Source: Planktothrix serta PCC 8927 (lineage in GTDB: Bacteria; Cyanobacteriota; Cyanobacteriia; Cyanobacteriales; Microcoleaceae). From it: a stretch of DNA of 59,038 nucleotides. The first letter of the stretch is position 1. Every line of letters starts with the position of its first letter. The translations under genes were made by a program, and so were the position numbers. The notes under the pieces were generated by a model. That model saw nothing but the letters and a program-made list of their open reading frames with translations, did not search any database and was not told where the DNA came from. The DNA is taken from contig NZ_LR734832.1 in the NCBI RefSeq assembly GCF_900010725.2, forward strand, positions 217,984 to 277,021. Direction: 5' to 3'. This document shows, piece after piece, positions 2,971 to 36,040 of this stretch.

Positions 2971-3073
2971 AGTTTTATATGATGGTATCTCCTCAGTTCT
3001 TAATGGATATCTTTATTTATAGCAAATTTCCTGAATGATGTCCTCACCTCTTTAACTAATTTGGCTTTCCAGA

Positions 3074-4468
3074 TTAAATTTTATTAGCAAAATGCTCCTG
3101 TAACAAACGGTTAATAAAACGATAGCGATCGCCTGTTTTTTGTAAAAATAATTTACGAGTAGCATCATTTAAAAATCGTTGATAATTCCAAGGAATATTC
3201 CCGTCTTTATAGAGAACCCATCGGATCACAAACTGCTCTATTTTTTCTTTTAAAGCCGATTTTTCTAATAAAATTGCTAATAATAATCCCAGTCCCATTC
3301 CCGTAATTAAAATAGGAGTTTCTCTCAGGATTATTCCGGCTAAAATGATCAGCAAAATAATTCCCCAAACTAAGCCTAAAATTAACTTTATTGTTAGTTT
3401 ATAACGCTGTTTTTGGGTATCATTATTTAACCAATGAATCGGTATTTTTTTAATTGAAAACTCCGTTAATTCATCGGTTTTGAGTCGAGTTGCTAACCAC
3501 CCTAACCACCGTCTAAAACTTTCGATTTTAGGTGCTTTTCCCTGGGGATATTCTGATGGATGAATATCTTGATTGAGTTGACGACGAATATAAGCATTAA
3601 ATAAATATTGACGTTGTTCCTCAAAAGAATTGAGGTGTTTCCAAGACATGATTAAAATTTCTTCATAAGCTAAAGTCATCATCGTTAAATATAACGGGAC
3701 TTTCGCTAATTTTAATAAGGGTTCATCGGTTTCAATATTTTGCCAAAGTTCTCGACTACGAGAATTAATCAGATAATCTTGAATTTGTTGGGAGGTTAAA
3801 GGACGTAAGAAGATAGCACCATTGAGATCTAAGCGTTCGGGAAGTTTTTGATAACTAATAACATTTGCACAGATGACTAAATGTAAAGGGGAAATATCTC
3901 CATTCAAGAGTTGATTAATCTGTTGAACACATTGAACTTGTTTGTTTAACGGGAGTTCATCTAATCCATCCAGTAACGGTAAAATTTGAAGTTGTTGTAT
4001 CCAATCTTGACTCACAGAAACAGCTATTCCATATTTAATCTGAAGCTGTTCTATAATCCAATCTATGATTCCTTGATTTTGATTTTTCCAAGTTAATAAA
4101 TTTAATAAAACCGGAAGGGGTTCTTCAGCATCAGTTCTCGCACGACCGACTAATACTTTAGCTAATCCGACTAAGGTTGTGGTTTTTCCTGAACCGGGAG
4201 AACCTAAAATTAATAATCTCCCATTTAAGCGATCAAAAACCTGAATAATTCCCGTATCAGCCGTTAAACGAACACTAGGATGATGACTGACTTTTAACTC
4301 CACATCCCAAGTTCGTCGCATTTTTAACGGGGGTGTTTCCTGAGCTAAATAAGTCAATACGGCTCGATGTAACGACTGTAAGCGATACTGCTTGACTTCA
4401 TTTTGAATCTGAAGCAGTAATTTTTGACGATTTTGCAATTGAGTCCTGGAAGAAGTCAATTTTGACAT
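3074..4468 (-). CDS. NACHT-type NTPase with membrane segments
   Basis: A STAND/NACHT-like P-loop NTPase of about 464 residues. It has Walker A LGSPGSGKTTTL, Walker B LPLLDGLDELP, a helical region, then two hydrophobic segments (around LGLVWGIILLIILAGIIL and ILITGMGLGLLLAILL), and ends with the conserved YRFINRLLQEHFA found at the C-terminus of many cyanobacterial NACHT proteins. No sensor repeats (WD40, TPR) are present. The frame is open to 4495, but the second Met (4468, MSKLTSSRTQL) is the more natural start. NACHT NTPases are signalling switches, several of them antiviral; the role here is unknown. The last 61 bases are duplicated beyond xisHI. Confidence 0.75.
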   Translation of the reverse strand: MSKLTSSRTQLQNRQKLLLQIQNEVKQYRLQSLHRAVLTYLAQETPPLKMRRTWDVELKVSHHPSVRLTADTGIIQVFDRLNGRLLILGSPGSGKTTTLVGLAKVLVGRARTDAEEPLPVLLNLLTWKNQNQGIIDWIIEQLQIKYGIAVSVSQDWIQQLQILPLLDGLDELPLNKQVQCVQQINQLLNGDISPLHLVICANVISYQKLPERLDLNGAIFLRPLTSQQIQDYLINSRSRELWQNIETDEPLLKLAKVPLYLTMMTLAYEEILIMSWKHLNSFEEQRQYLFNAYIRRQLNQDIHPSEYPQGKAPKIESFRRWLGWLATRLKTDELTEFSIKKIPIHWLNNDTQKQRYKLTIKLILGLVWGIILLIILAGIILRETPILITGMGLGLLLAILLEKSALKEKIEQFVIRWVLYKDGNIPWNYQRFLNDATRKLFLQKTGDRYRFINRLLQEHFANKI

Positions 4469-4503
4469 TGAAGATTTAGAATATATAAAAAACAAAAAAA
4501 CAC

Positions 4504-20739: not shown

Positions 20740-20803
20740 AAGCGGTTTAACTGAATAGTTTTTATCTGGATTGTTTTTTATTTTGACATTACTCTAGGAA
20801 ATA

Positions 20804-21194
20804 ATGACTAATTTTTGGGATCAAATTTTTAACTTGGCATCAACAACCGCTAACGACGTTGGACAACAGTTAATCCTCGATTTTGGCACTGTCCAAGCCT
20901 CGGAAAAAGCCGATGGCAGTTTAGTCACTCGTTTTGACCAATGGGCCGATCAAGAAATTCGCACGCGCATCGCCACAACTTTTCCTGAGCATGGGGTGAT
21001 CAGTGAAGAAGCGGAACACATTTTTCCTCATACAGACTGGTGCTGGGTGATTGATCCTTTAAACCAAACCTTTCACGGGTTATGGAACTCAATCCTATCC
21101 TACATTAGTTGTCAGTCAAGCTGAATTATTATCAGTATTTCAACCCTTTATTAATGATTTTATCAATAATATTAGTGCCTACTTTTGGAACTAA
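20804..21194 (+). pseudogene. Inositol monophosphatase family gene, two internal deletions
   Basis: The first 85 codons match the intact gene at 25755-26549, up to WVIDPL. A 105-base (35-codon) segment is then missing between two copies of TCCTTTA, removing DGTTNFARG of the metal-binding site. After a short match (NQTFHG), a further 332 bases are missing, which shifts the frame; translation stops at 21122-21124. The original C-terminal frame is still recognisable afterwards (SVFQPFIN) and runs to a stop at 21192-21194. The product would lack catalytic residues. It is a decayed duplicate, not a functional short gene. Confidence 0.9.
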
Positions 21195-25538: not shown

Positions 25539-25754
25539 ATTGTCTAATGATCCTTTGTCTTGATCTCATCAATCTCAAAGGAATTAGTTCTCTAGCTAGA
25601 GGAAGATTTAATGGCTTTCGCGTTAACTCAAGGTTATTGTAAACGAGTTGTGAGTAGGAACTCATGCACAGGATATCAAGATCCCAATAAGATTGAGAAT
25701 CCCACGACTTTAATGTAGTGAAATGGTAAAAGTATCAAATTAGTTTAGGAAATC

Positions 25755-26549
25755 ATGAGTAATTTTTGGAATCAAATTTTGAATTTTGCCACAACAACGG
25801 CTAAGGATGTTGGACAACAGTTAATCCTCGATTTCGGCACAGTCCAAGCCTCGGAAAAAGCCGATGGTAGTTTAGTCACCCGGTCTGACCAATGGGCCGA
25901 TCAAGAAATTCGTGCTCGCATTGCGACAACATTTCCTGATCATGGGATGATCACTGAAGAAGCGGAACATATTTTTCCGAATACGGACTGGTGTTGGGTG
26001 ATTGATCCTTTAGATGGGACAACTAATTTCGCCAGAGGTATTCCCATTTGGGGGATTTCTTTAGGATTACTTTATCAAGGAACTCCCGTATTTGGTTTGA
26101 TTCATTTACCTCCTTTAAACCAAACCTTTCACGGGTTTTGGTTCGGCTCATCGGGGTTAACTGGCTCAGAAGGAGCTTTTTTAAATAATCAACCTATTCA
26201 CGCCAGTTCTGATGCGTTAAGTTCTAATCACTTTTTTAACCTCTGTTCTCGAAGTATTGCGATCGCTCCCCAAATTCCTTGTAAAATTCGGATGTTAGGC
26301 ATGGCGGCTTATAATTTCCTCACCGTCGCCGTCGGGGCAACATTAGGAGGCGTTGAAGCCACTCCTAAAATATGGGATATCGCCGGAAGTTGGGTAATTG
26401 TTAAAGCGGCGGGCGCGGTTTGGTGTCCCCTCTCTGCTGAACCTTTCCCCTTAGAAATAGGTCGAGATTATGCAACTCAATCCTATCCTACATTAGTCGT
26501 GAGTCAACCCGAATTAGTATCAGTATTTCAACCCTTTATTAAAACATAA
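25755..26549 (+). CDS. Inositol monophosphatase family protein
   Basis: A Mg-dependent phosphatase of 264 residues in the inositol-monophosphatase superfamily. Metal-binding residues are visible in TEEAEHIF (Glu68-69), DPLDGTTNFARG (84-95) and WDIAGSWVIVKAAGA. The substrate could be inositol phosphate, histidinol phosphate or another sugar phosphate; sequence alone does not decide. It is the intact parent or sister of the decayed copy at 20804-21194. No operon partner is evident. Confidence 0.85.
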   Translation: MSNFWNQILNFATTTAKDVGQQLILDFGTVQASEKADGSLVTRSDQWADQEIRARIATTFPDHGMITEEAEHIFPNTDWCWVIDPLDGTTNFARGIPIWGISLGLLYQGTPVFGLIHLPPLNQTFHGFWFGSSGLTGSEGAFLNNQPIHASSDALSSNHFFNLCSRSIAIAPQIPCKIRMLGMAAYNFLTVAVGATLGGVEATPKIWDIAGSWVIVKAAGAVWCPLSAEPFPLEIGRDYATQSYPTLVVSQPELVSVFQPFIKT

Positions 26550-26551
26550 AA

Positions 26552-26581
26552 GTAGGGTGCGTAAGCGATCGCGCACGCACC
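26552..26581. repeat. GTAGGGTGCGT hairpin repeat, copy 1
   Basis: A hairpin with arms GGTGCGT and ACGCACC just after the inositol-monophosphatase stop. Related copies occur at 29844-29872 and 30111-30140. Here the loop contains a HIP1 octamer. It is a dispersed palindromic repeat that could also act as a terminator. Confidence 0.75.
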
Positions 26582-26585
26582 TTAT

Positions 26586-26668
26586 AGAAACCGGATTTCT
26601 CAGGTTTAGTAAAATTTACACCTTCACCCCATTAGCTTAATTTTCAAATAATCGTCTTCTATTTTCGT
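26586..26668 (-). pseudogene. Displaced copy of the ArsA-like gene 3' end
   Basis: This segment matches 28207-28282, which holds the last 18 codons of the ArsA-like gene and about 20 bases beyond. The coding part is recognisable (EDDYLKIK) but carries a 4-base deletion that shifts the frame, and the downstream part has a 10-base insertion. No gene body is attached. It lies on the far side of the Panacea pair, mirroring the arrangement at 2153-3134. Confidence 0.8.
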
Positions 26669-26739
26669 TATCCCTAAAAATCTATCAACTGAGACTTTTT
26701 TCCTGGCAATTGGCAGAGTCAAGAAAAGATTTTTATTCC

Positions 26740-27159
26740 TTAACCTCCGTGATCGTACACTTTAAAAGATCTATCTAGCCATATAATCCGAAAAATTGCT
26801 TCATCCCGATAACCAACCATTGGTTTTAAACCACTAAATCGGAATGCGATCAGCTTGACATCTTCTGTAATATGTTTGGGAATAGAAACACCAAAACTGT
26901 TACGATCAATGATTTCATACCCAAGTCCATGACGAGGTGCACGACGAAGTTCCCTCCAAGATAACTGACTGAGTTTGTACAATGTAGATACCAAAGCTGC
27001 TTTTTCATCTTGATCACAACTATCTAAGCCGTGTGTTTTATCAAGATATCGAAAACAGAAAACAGGAGGTTCTAAATCGTAATTTTGGGTACTTGGCAAA
27101 GGTGGAGGTGGAGCAATGCGTTTTCCTTTTTTAGGGTCTTTACCCTTCATCTTTGCCAT
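26740..27159 (-). CDS. Putative toxin partnered with a Panacea antitoxin
   Basis: A 139-residue protein that I do not recognise by name. A basic, proline-rich start (KDPKKGKRIAPPPPLP) leads into a compact alpha/beta region with FCFRYLDKTHGLDSCDQDEKAAL, a basic YKLSQLSWRELRRAPRHGLG segment and an aromatic strand FRIIWLDRSFKVYDHGG (segments quoted separately). The start lies 2 bases after the stop of the Panacea-domain gene, the order expected for an antitoxin-toxin operon. The WRELRRAPRHGLG segment is reminiscent of small RNase-type toxins, but that is an inference. Confidence 0.55.
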   Translation of the reverse strand: MAKMKGKDPKKGKRIAPPPPLPSTQNYDLEPPVFCFRYLDKTHGLDSCDQDEKAALVSTLYKLSQLSWRELRRAPRHGLGYEIIDRNSFGVSIPKHITEDVKLIAFRFSGLKPMVGYRDEAIFRIIWLDRSFKVYDHGG

Positions 27160-27161
27160 GA

Positions 27162-27899
27162 CTACTTCAGCAGTTGAGTCTCAAAATATGCCTTCATCAA
27201 ATCAAGGGATATCTCTGCATTAAGATCAGTTTCTTTATAGGGGGGTTCTTGATGAGTAAAACGCTTAAGTATTGGAGCCGTGTATTGTCCATAGACTTCA
27301 TAAACTTCATCTAATAATTCTTGTGTTTCTTGACTATATTGATCTATATTAAAATCGTCAGGTTGTGGAAGAGGATTTGATCCATATTGCTTGTATATTC
27401 GGTAAACATCAGGCACAACAGGCCCATATTGCCAAGCTTCTATTTTTTCAGTAAATAGGCGTTTCCCAAATAGAGCTAAATGAAAACCTTGAGCATAGTA
27501 AAGCAATTTCTGAAGTCTTAGATTAGTCATTAAATCTTCTTCTTCAGGAGAAGCCAGGGTAATCAAGTATTTAGCTATATCTAAAGCATTAGACCCTTCA
27601 GTTTCAGACAATCCTTTTCTAGCATCTAGTTCAGGATCTTCGTCAACAATCACGTTAGAAGGAGATGGGCGATTAGAGGGTTTATAAGTTTCGGTTAACA
27701 ATGAGCGATTAGAGGGTTTATAAGTTTCGGTTAACGATGGGAGATTAGATGGTTTGTAAGGTTCGGCTGACCATGAGCGATTAGATAGTTTGTAAGGTTC
27801 GGTTAATGATAGCGGATTAGATTGTCTGTGAGGTTTAACAATCGGTTCGGTTAACTCTGGTTTTTCTTCCTCTAGGTGTTCTGGAAATTCAGAAATCAT
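27162..27899 (-). CDS. Panacea (DUF4065) domain antitoxin with repeat extension
   Basis: A 245-residue protein whose C-terminal part (about residues 105-240) matches the Panacea/DUF4065 domain: DIAKYLITLA, LTNLRLQKLLYYAQGFHLAL-like core (NLRLQKLLYYAQGFHLALFG), WQYGPVVPDVYRIYKQYG and a helical end. Panacea domains act as antitoxins to many unrelated toxins. The N-terminal 80 residues are unusual: about four and a half copies of a 12-residue unit (consensus TETYKPSNRSLL), seen in DNA as a 36-base repeat at about 27666-27830. It is the upstream gene of a pair with 26740-27159. Confidence 0.75.
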   Translation of the reverse strand: MISEFPEHLEEEKPELTEPIVKPHRQSNPLSLTEPYKLSNRSWSAEPYKPSNLPSLTETYKPSNRSLLTETYKPSNRPSPSNVIVDEDPELDARKGLSETEGSNALDIAKYLITLASPEEEDLMTNLRLQKLLYYAQGFHLALFGKRLFTEKIEAWQYGPVVPDVYRIYKQYGSNPLPQPDDFNIDQYSQETQELLDEVYEVYGQYTAPILKRFTHQEPPYKETDLNAEISLDLMKAYFETQLLK

Positions 27900-28226
27900 A
27901 AGCTAGTTCTAATATTTAATTTGTTAAAATTGTAGTTTAATCTTAGGATACCATGTTTTTTATTATAACTCATTCTGATCATTAATGAAGTCATCTTGAC
28001 GACCGCAACACGTCGCGCTAATTCCTGTAAAAACACCTCATTCGCTTAAATTTACAAAACTTTATTTCTAATTGAATAATGTTTTTGGCAAAGGTAAGTA
28101 GGTGGTCATAAATAAACGTTAAACCTGAAAACGTGAATTCTTTCTACAGAGAGACTTATAGCGTTTTACATTTTACGCTTAATTACGCCTACCTACTTAT
28201 TGTCTAAGAAACCGGGTTTCTAAAAT
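27900..28226. other. Non-coding stretch containing a MITE-like element
   Basis: No gene is present. It contains the promoter side of the Panacea pair (about 27900-28090), a MITE-like inverted-repeat element at 28095-28199 and the hairpin AGAAACCGGGTTTCT (28207-28221), which is also present beside the displaced 3' end at 26586. Confidence 0.6.
28095..28199. mobile_element. MITE-like inverted-repeat element, 105 bases
   Basis: The ends are imperfect inverted repeats: TAAGTAGGTGGTCATAA at the left, and at the right the complement of TAAGTAGGTAGGCGTAAT. The interior is AT-rich and non-coding, with GCGTTTTACATTTTACGC. The size, ends and lack of coding capacity fit a non-autonomous transposable element. 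No transposase is in the window. Confidence 0.65.
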
Positions 28227-29414
28227 TTACACCTTCACCCCATTAGCAAACTTAATTTTCAAATAATCATCTTCCATTTTTGCCCCGGAAGGTTGCAACA
28301 TCGCTAAAGCTTGGGGTAACACTAAATTGCGGCGATGATTACCAATTCTAATATTGAGTTCATCTCCGGTTTTATTGAGTTGAATTTGTTCTTTTGGAAT
28401 TCCAGGTAAATACAATTCCAACGTATATTCATTTTTATCTTCCACCACCCGAACTGTATTTTCCTTATAGTAAACTTGACTAGGATCTTCATCTCCATAT
28501 AACGTTTCTTTCAACCGTTCTAAAGCTTCAAGCCCACATAATTCCTCAGAAAATAACGGTACTTCCTTAACAGGTAAGGGCGAGAAATTATCATGAATTT
28601 CTTGACGATATTGTTGTTGACTTTCTTTCCATTTTTTGAAAAAAGGATCAGTCACTTCTTCAGGAATAATCCGATTTGCAATCACTAAATCCGTAGAAAC
28701 ATTATACAAACTTAAATAAGCATGGGCGCGTAAAGATTCCTTAATTACCATTTTTTCAGGGTTCGTAACTAAACGCACCGAGGTTTGCGTATTATCCGTT
28801 AACACTTTTTCTAAGGCTTCAATTTTTTCATAAAAGTCATAGGGCGCGTCCATCACTTCTTTATCGGGTAAAGAAAACCCCGTCAAAGGTTTAAAAATCG
28901 GTTCAAACAAAGGACGCAAGGCTACCGACATCCCTTGTAACGGTTTATAAAATTTTCTCATATACCAACCGCCCACTTCCGGTAAACTTAATAGTCTCAA
29001 CGCGGTTCCCGTTGGGGCAGAATCAATAATTAAAACATCAAAATCTCCCTCATCATAATGGCGCTTCATCCGCACCAAACCAAAAATTTCGTCCATTCCC
29101 GGTAAAATCGCCAATTCTTCCGCCTGGACTCCATCAAGTCCTCGCGCCTGTAACACCTGACTAATATAGCGTTTCACCGCTCCCCAGTTGCCTTCGAGTT
29201 CCATCAGGGCGTCCAATTCCGCACCCCAAAGGTTAGGGCGGACGAGACGGGGTTCGTGTCCCAAGGGCATATCAAAGCTGTCGGCGAGGGAGTGAGCGGG
29301 GTCGGTACTCAAGACTAGGGTTTTATGCCCCAACTCCGCACAGCGTAGCCCTGTTGCAGCCGCAACGGAGGTTTTACCCACGCCACCTTTACCCGTCATT
29401 AAAATTACGCGCAT
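28227..29414 (-). CDS. ArsA/Get3-family ATPase with C-terminal HSP20-like domain
   Basis: A 395-residue ATPase of the ArsA/Get3 (TRC40) class. It has the deviant Walker [10 protein letters not shown] at the N-terminus, the switch I region [13 protein letters not shown] and [12 protein letters not shown]. The last 80 residues form a small beta-rich domain like alpha-crystallin/HSP20 ([17 protein letters not shown] then [15 protein letters not shown]), a combination known in cyanobacterial ArsA-like proteins. No arsenic genes are adjacent, and the ArsA-type cysteines are not evident, so a role in protein targeting or stress is as likely as arsenite export. Its 3' end is duplicated at 26586-26668. 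Confidence 0.85.
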
Positions 29415-34120: not shown

Positions 34121-34165
34121 GGTATTAGATATTAGCGATCGCACATTTCTATCTTCTCCAAAATG
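34121..34165 (+). repeat. Right flank repeat of the HTH-dynamin gene
   Basis: Positions 34121-34148 match 38014-38041 with few differences, and 34135-34165 is identical to 35975-36005. Both contain a HIP1 octamer. The block starts directly after an ATGA at 34117-34120. Confidence 0.7.
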
Positions 34166-34261
34166 CAATCGCACTCTTATTTTCCCAAAATCGCACCTTA
34201 CCTTTTTTCACGCTTTTGGGCATCGCACCTTGCTATCCAGCGAGCAGAGCTATAATAACAA

Positions 34262-35950: not shown

Positions 35951-36040
35951 GATCGCCCTTAATTTTCCGATCGGGCGATCGCACATTTCTATCTTCTCCA
36001 AAATGTGATCGCCCTTTCCAACACCAAATTAATTAACTCC

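Follow-up and report, generated by a model that had tools for sequence, protein, structure and literature searches.

How do chromosomal toxin-antitoxin pairs and small defence pairs enter a genome and spread when they carry no mobility gene? This open question is raised by a locus of Planktothrix serta PCC 8927, a cyanobacterium of bloom-forming type (genome G000; 6.27 Mb in 155 contigs). In a stretch of 59,038 nucleotides (G000:C13:217984-277021; hereafter the window), a gene for an ArsA-type ATPase (arsA) is followed by a two-gene cassette, a Panacea antitoxin gene and a putative toxin gene, and then by a second copy of the arsA 3′ end. We compared this locus with nine other Planktothrix genomes (G001 to G009; G005 is 73% complete) and surveyed other genes for the same geometry. 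One locus of G009 (L153) has 100% identity to plasmid AP017995.1 of P. agardhii NIES-204. The results suggest that small pairs may spread between strains by splicing in at gene ends. It is probable, with some reserve, that slots behind conserved genes are filled by small cassettes of toxin-antitoxin or defence type through homology-anchored additive recombination.

Two cassettes bracketed by gene ends

The arsA gene (28227-29414, minus strand) encodes a 395-amino-acid (aa) ArsA-type ATPase with a C-terminal HSP20-like domain (PF02374, E 4e-112; PF17886, E 4e-22). Its attached 3′-end copy (28207-28282, minus) consists of the last approximately 54 coding nt, the stop and the palindromic, terminator-like AGAAACCCGGTTTCT. 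The displaced copy lies at 26586-26668 in the same orientation. Self-BLAST of the window aligned 28221-28280 with 26610-26665 on the same strand, with 90% identity over 60 columns and a 4-nt gap (E 1.9e-15). Full alignment showed that the 4-nt deletion lies in the coding part of the displaced copy and shifts its frame. A 10-nt insertion follows ATTTT, and the arsA tail copies share the palindrome AGAAA(C/T)CCGGTTTCT farther on. Between the copies lie the genes for a Panacea (SocA-like) antitoxin of 245 aa (27162-27899, minus; PF13274 over the whole profile, E 1.2e-22) and for a putative toxin of 139 aa (26740-27159, minus), whose start is 2 nt past the antitoxin stop. The first-pass annotation, made from the window alone, had described this duplication, its insertion and deletion, and the enclosed pair, and each of these was borne out. 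Chance similarity of the tail copies is ruled out by the E value of 2e-15 and by the same edge in G003.

The window contains a second case, which the first-pass annotation had linked to the first; this link was right in kind. A gene for a NACHT-like NTPase (3074-4495, minus; PF05729 just below the cut-off) is followed by xisH (2554-2970, minus; PF08814) and xisI (2231-2563, minus; PF08869). These are bracketed by the attached NACHT 3′ end (3066-3138, minus) and a displaced copy (2145-2217, minus), which are 93% identical (self-BLAST of the window, E 4e-24). The exact shared block starts at AGGCGATCGC; the BLAST match starts 5 nt earlier, in an A-run. Neither the Panacea nor the xisHI cassette contains a recombinase or transposase ORF. 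Two further xisHI brackets were set aside as 3′-end cases, because one is possibly at a gene start (L150) and the other is an intergenic repeat (L155).

The arsA slot and transfer of the pair

Near-full-length arsA matches of 78-100% identity were found in 53 of 59 genomes, P. serta included; G012 and G044 have partial matches, and G005, G016, G022 and G050 only distant ones. Eight of the nine relatives thus have the full gene, the exception being G005. The first-pass annotation had proposed an alignment with strains that have arsA and lack the Panacea pair. In G007 and G008, arsA is followed by a palindrome and directly by a gene of the inositol-monophosphatase family (IMP), with nothing between. 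IMP (25755-26549, plus; PF00459) is also the convergent neighbour in the window and the right border of the slot in relatives. G003 contains the same Panacea pair and a displaced tail at +1385..+1433, which is 80% identical and starts at the same base. In G002, G004 and G006, the interval is occupied by an insert with a PtuA-type ATPase. The G006 proteins match PtuA (2.8e-163) and PtuB (3.4e-66) in PADLOC, so that both parts of a Septu system, the PtuA ATPase and the PtuB HNH protein, are present. An intact HNH ORF follows the ATPase in G004 and G006; in G002, the ATPase has no second ORF of at least 90 aa. The locus is rearranged in G001 and G009: arsA is followed there by other genes, and a search of 8 kb revealed no IMP. 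The arsA loci of relatives are filled, empty or differently filled; therefore, the interval from arsA to IMP is a slot with alternative inserts.

The Panacea cassette is far younger than its flanks and has moved horizontally between species, because synonymous divergence (dS) between G000 and G003 is 0.073 for Panacea and 0.058 for the toxin, far below 0.468 for arsA and 0.384 for IMP. The Panacea proteins of the two genomes are 84% identical. The N-terminal part of the protein is encoded by 36-bp tandem repeats (27664-27843) with (T/A)E(P/T)YKxSNR-like units, whose number differs between G000 and G003. The 139-aa ORF had no match in Pfam, a weak match to NsnC of PADLOC (C-terminal part, E 6e-8) and no relative among solved structures up to E 1. 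A search of 388 genomes of the order gave a match in 56. In the regions read, a Panacea-like ORF stands directly before the toxin homologue, as judged by DNA similarity, in G003, G042, G128, G131, G167, G179, G213 and G323, and the Panacea domain is also present in the relatives in G179 and G167. With a Panacea domain and a conserved adjacent partner, the pair is a predicted member of PanAT, a family in which a Panacea (DUF4065) protein likewise adjoins a partner ORF (PMC8832971); it differs in that its partner belongs to a family with no Pfam match and its toxin-antitoxin activity is a prediction. We also considered whether the cassette takes the arsA 3′ end along to other loci. This was rejected: the 28 toxin loci outside G000 and G003 are similar to the cassette only in the two ORFs (at most relative positions 632-1489), with a 28-nt match in L097 as the sole exception.

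The order behind arsA in G000 is a 105-bp inverted repeat, the Panacea gene, the 139-aa ORF, the displaced tail, a repeat resembling a repetitive extragenic palindrome (REP) and IMP. The imperfect inverted repeat (28095-28199; 36-nt arms, 75% identical) begins with TAAGTAGGTAGGCGTAATTAAGC. It lies behind arsA in G000 and G003, and only its first, left arm was seen in G001 and G009. It resembles, and may be, a miniature inverted-repeat transposable element. The REP-like palindrome (26546-26581), an interspersed repeat that lies between the displaced end and the IMP stop, has a core like the highly iterated palindrome HIP1. It is present in the five filled arsA slots that adjoin IMP (G000, G002, G003, G004 and G006) and absent from the empty slots of G007 and G008.

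Insertion does not always leave a copy, since no displaced arsA tail was found in three of the five filled slots next to IMP, those of Septu type. Nor do 3′-end copies always enclose a cassette. Tandem repeats of the arsA tail with its HSP20-like domain lie behind the gene in G029 (three copies; L020, 2847-3580), in G014 (one; L019, 1176-1340) and in G038, of another family (one; L028, 2770-2898), all with no cassette. G001 has a partial second arsA copy far from the gene (G001:C1:143777-144405, L057), which covers residues 147-193 and 228-395 at 90-94% identity. IMP also has a second, internally deleted copy in the window, 4.7 kb away on the same strand (20788-21154 versus 25739-26542; 274 nt at 88% and 75 nt at 92%), and the two copies bracket three genes.

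Recurrence at other conserved genes

For each of the 1622 ORFs that encode 80 aa or more within 2.059 Mb (1.259 Mb of G000 and 0.4 Mb each of G001 and G003), we looked 0.2-6 kb downstream for a short, low-copy repeat of its last coding bases; rows that occurred more than four times in the sample were excluded before counting. Nine ORFs had a match, and six of these are cassette cases, two of them in the window. The other three were dropped: C49_58 and G1b_49, in which most of a small ORF is repeated, and one IMP copy. Four of the six inserts contain genes of toxin-antitoxin type, one is xisHI and one contains a glycosyltransferase. Outside the window, the host genes encode an ABC1/UbiB kinase (AarF, PF03109) followed by a PIN pair (PIN at 5e-4, below the Pfam cut-off); a MoxR-type ATPase followed by a ParE toxin gene and a small ORF, with different ParE-type pairs in G000 and G007; a histidine kinase of G001 followed by small genes, HicA and a nucleotidyltransferase among them, that are interspersed with two displaced tails; and a peroxiredoxin of G003 followed by the glycosyltransferase. 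The same geometry was found behind a phosphoketolase gene (xfp) in another family of the order. Across cases, the span between copies is 0.6-2.7 kb, and the displaced copies are 30-204 nt long and 79-96% identical. The host frame is intact in the loci read.

The NACHT gene is also followed by a slot. It is empty in three of the nine genomes compared (G004, G008 and G009), and G007 has 75 extra nt there. G003 and G001 contain a second, unrelated insert with a displaced tail, and G006 contains a third insert, which has no displaced copy. For G002, a search of 8 kb showed no displaced tail and no sequence matching the empty-site flank. The inserts of G003 and G001 have three mismatches in their first 660 nt, whereas windows of the flanks are 68-97% identical; this tract of near-identity ends at the host stop on one side and at the displaced tail on the other. 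CRISPR-like repeats (CTTTCAACTAATAGAATCCCGTTCGCGGGACTGAAA) occur within the NACHT-slot inserts of G006 (L258), G003 (L259) and G001 (L261). The AarF slot is empty in four of ten genomes (G001, G007, G008 and G009). The displaced AarF tails of G000, G006, G002, G005 and G004 begin at the same HIP1, and the extent of their decay varies; a displaced AarF tail is absent from G003.

Displaced tails are old gene ends at two genes

The first-pass annotation took the displaced copy for the old 3′ end. This was confirmed for the AarF kinase and NACHT genes, because the sequence that flanks the gene at empty sites recurs behind the displaced copy; in G000, this flank is 86-87% identical after both tails. 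The insertion is thus additive at these two genes, with recipient sequence kept beside the old flank. For arsA the claim holds in part, with the REP-like repeat between tail and IMP. The empty-site flank was not found behind the displaced AarF tails of G002, G004 and G005.

Four displaced tails have kept frame and stop over at least 19 codons. Their 16 codon differences from the attached tail are all synonymous (AarF of G000, six; AarF of G006, three; NACHT of G000, two; MoxR of G007, five over 60 residues), whereas a synonymous share of about 0.24-0.29 is expected of a neutral copy. Because all these differences are synonymous, the intact tails would have diverged while coding, as alleles in different cells, and would have been joined by recombination later. 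A reading in which the insertion itself produced the duplication did not hold up, since well-kept ends with synonymous differences only were probably not copied in place but represent alleles of another strain. Empty slots might also be explained by deletion between the repeats, with loss of the cassette, but this was rejected as their cause; it cannot yield tails that differ only synonymously, although it may add variability. By eye, the displaced arsA tail of G003 is nearer to the genus consensus than the attached tail. The displaced arsA tail of G000 looks like a chimera: its first approximately 30 nt resemble the displaced tail of G003, the remainder equals its own arsA tail, and 4 nt are lost between. 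Displaced gene tails are a readable scar of such events; they help to establish dating, polarity (old versus new flank) and allele origin, so that the process can be counted genome-wide.

Tails can also be stacked. In G167 and G179, the Panacea pair lies behind xfp, and in both genomes the displaced tail covers the gene from 21 nt ahead of the stop codon's last base. It starts with GCGATCG in G167 and GCGAGCG in G179, and the gene itself has GCGATCG. The G179 stack reads xfp, a BrnT/CopG pair, tail, the Panacea pair with PDDEXK_2, tail and a BrnT relic. If each insertion enters directly behind the gene, the newest cassette would be the one nearest to it.

How a cassette may enter

We propose the following steps. 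DNA of a relative that contains the 3′ part of the host gene and the cassette would pair with the recipient's copy of the gene. Its far end would join at a short match in the recipient's gene tail, at or near HIP1 (GCGATCG; GCGATCGC) in three of nine cases. The incoming tail would then complete the host gene, the cassette would come next, and the recipient's old tail and flank would be shifted downstream, where the tail would then decay. Repeated events would stack cassettes behind one gene. The left junction would be homologous and the right one driven by microhomology, with delivery probably by transformation and the pairs acting as toxin and antitoxin. A displaced tail might serve as the right-hand homology arm in later transfers; such a second arm, which needs only the host gene in the recipient, may aid spread.

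Several observations weigh against this reading. The four intact tails were chosen afterwards as intact copies. When all eight measured copies are counted, the synonymous share falls to 22 of 42 codon differences (for 21 of 41, a count with the MoxR tail read in part, p is 0.0008 against a share of 0.27), and the other four tails are decayed or mixed (AarF of G002, 2/8 synonymous; NACHT of G003, 1/3; NACHT of G001, 0/6; arsA of G003, 3/9). One of these four has two stops. Coding constraint is not evident in the window's own displaced arsA copy, which is frameshifted and has one synonymous and one non-synonymous change. The identity tract of the NACHT inserts in G003 and G001 starts at the stop, not within the gene. 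This start is unexpected under pure one-sided homology with no later exchange of the flank. It can mean that the flank was exchanged later with empty alleles, which would be unable to enter the cassette, or that the cassette moves more precisely. A donor that has the right-hand junction expected under this model was not encountered.

The alternative that survives best, unlikely as we judge it, is an insertion with a long target-site duplication. An uncharacterized insertion or break-repair process would copy 30-200 nt of the target, and the displaced copy would decay and be overwritten at times by exchange with empty alleles. Many duplications are indeed 50-80 nt long (64, 71, 73, 60, 53, 70 and 68), several displaced copies look neutral, as in AarF of G002, and a 5′ end is duplicated too, at dnaG. 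A copy made in place does not account for 16 of 16 synonymous differences in intact copies, nor for a displaced arsA tail in G003 that is closer to the genus consensus than the attached one, and the lengths vary from 30 to 204 nt.

HIP1 at the junctions

The shared block starts exactly at GCGATCG in AarF and xfp and within 5 nt of it in NACHT. By chance, HIP1 within 5 nt of the edge in three of nine cases has a probability of 3e-5, and an exact start in two of nine 1.6e-5. A published study mentions previous indications that link HIP1 to site-specific and to illegitimate recombination, and a repeat module inserted in HIP1 (PMC4390886). The window contains another HIP1-edged repeat, a 41-nt sequence at 34135-34175 and 35975-36015 (93%), both copies of which start with GCGATCGCACAT; several further short repeats lie around it at 34-38 kb.

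These edges allow a bolder proposal, which we consider unlikely. Conserved gene tails might be reusable docking sites that are cut or joined at HIP1 where it is present; toxin-antitoxin and defence cassettes would enter behind the gene, the tail would be renewed and older cassettes would be stacked away. This would be integron-like accumulation with no integron, with HIP1 as the recombination edge. Three points limit the HIP1 evidence. Six of nine edges have no HIP1 (arsA, MoxR of G000, MoxR of G007, the histidine kinase, the peroxiredoxin and the second NACHT insert), the cases were already known when the test was conceived, and its chance level, taken from the HIP1 density in the last 20-120 coding bases of Planktothrix, was also applied to xfp of other genera. 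If HIP1 edges hold in a fresh sample, this long-puzzling cyanobacterial octamer would be concretely linked to natural insertion junctions.

The same edges bear on precise mobility of the cassettes, which we regard as doubtful. A trans-acting recombinase would move them from gene end to gene end, with HIP1 or the gene tail as the core and possibly through circles. The cassette-sized identity tract bounded by two tails agrees with this, as do the HIP1 edges seen at two or three host genes, the constancy of the edge between the xfp genes of two genera and between the AarF genes of five species, and the published hints of HIP1-linked recombination (PMC4390886). XisH and XisI are annotated as fdxN-element excision controlling factors, and the G179 stack includes a PDDEXK_2 "nuclease family transposase". 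Against this, edges differ at one and the same gene (the third xfp copy; NACHT in G003 and G001; MoxR in G000 and G007), HIP1 is absent at the six edges named above, and the window's cassettes encode no recombinase.

It is very unlikely that the cassettes are remnants of larger integrative elements that were once site-specific in gene 3′ ends of the icd type and were reduced to a small cassette. Their geometry, like attL and attR with an element-borne gene tail, has a precedent at icd. The small size recurs between copies in case after case, edges differ at the same gene, and of the ORFs observed in the Panacea, xisHI, PIN and MoxR cassettes, none was named as an integrase. By their features, the cassettes fit neither of two usual classes: these cassette ORFs include no integrase and the junctions have no constant core site, as site-specific elements would, and the window's cassettes have no transposase ORF, as insertion sequences would, with copies of 30-204 nt at 79-96% identity.

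Frequency of gene-end copies

The first-pass annotation had called for a self-comparison for gene-end duplications. The survey found such cases in 6 of 1622 ORFs, but an excess is unproven. Among 851 ORFs of at least 800 nt, gene interiors yielded no case (p 0.08; p 0.18 against 4/1568 with the window cases removed). This is only suggestive of a genome-wide excess of 3′-tail copies over gene interiors. Flanking direct repeats were found at 7 of 30 loci of toxin homologues and at 2 of 66 loci of arsA, AarF and NACHT (p 0.004), and at 5 of 28 toxin loci when the window and G003 were removed (p 0.02). For toxin and xisH loci together, the figures were 10/57 (p 0.007) and, with the window and G003 loci removed, 7/54 (p 0.04).

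A common mode of capture at 3′ ends, as the first-pass annotation had suggested, holds as recurrence at several host genes but not as a rule confined to 3′ ends. The corresponding 5′-end survey gave six ORFs, three of them comparable, including a PIN-type pair before dnaG bracketed by a 5′-end copy; the other three, C49_38, G1b_53 (which pairs with G1b_49) and the IMP pair, were not counted. Six 3′ ends versus three 5′ ends is not a significant difference (p 0.25). At the dnaG locus (G000:C57:320167-323296, L119), the 5′ end and an inner fragment of dnaG are displaced upstream with the PIN-type pair between; by eye, this pair resembles that of the AarF slot.

That gene tails were duplicated by chance or simply in tandem, and that an unrelated insertion then came between the copies, is most improbable in view of the recurrence at several host genes and the empty-site proof for two, even if cassette-free arsA tail repeats exist (one in G014, three in G029 and one in G038) and the excess over gene interiors is not significant.

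Comparison with known systems

The displaced tail behind a cassette is a known kind of recombination scar in an unusual, repeated setting. Phages and other elements that integrate in gene 3′ ends of the icd type bring in DNA that restores the tail and displaces the old one. Our cases resemble these in both respects and differ in that no integrase was seen and the edges vary. Orphans of contact-dependent inhibition (CDI) systems have displaced tails akin to those of Rhs. Repeats flank 10-18% of the variable segments in E. coli, S. aureus and S. pyogenes (PMC2884548). Those repeats are mostly shorter than 30 bp and are read as deletion sites, and section 10 of that paper describes no displacement of gene tails. 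In the open PMC literature, no work on toxin-antitoxin cassettes bracketed by displaced host-gene tails, or on HIP1 at such edges, appeared in the titles and abstract openings among the matches listed.

Homology-facilitated illegitimate recombination (HFIR), which occurs in transformation or conjugation, is anchored by homology on one side and joined at little homology on the other (PMC5361080; PMC3240628). It resembles the events proposed here in that insertion is additive and recipient sequence is kept; the difference is that our events are inferred from genomes, with a short match at or near HIP1 in some cases and the donor junctions unseen. Homology-anchored additive recombination fits our data in the way proposed for arrays of effector and immunity genes of type VI secretion systems (T6SS) (PMC5361080). 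In these arrays, and in Rhs orphans according to works cited there, a module enters at the 3′ side of a gene, the old 3′ region is pushed downstream and repeated events produce arrays. In T6SS, Rhs and CDI systems, the gene tail is the changing toxin part, whereas in our cases a conserved tail adjoins a cassette to which it has no relation.

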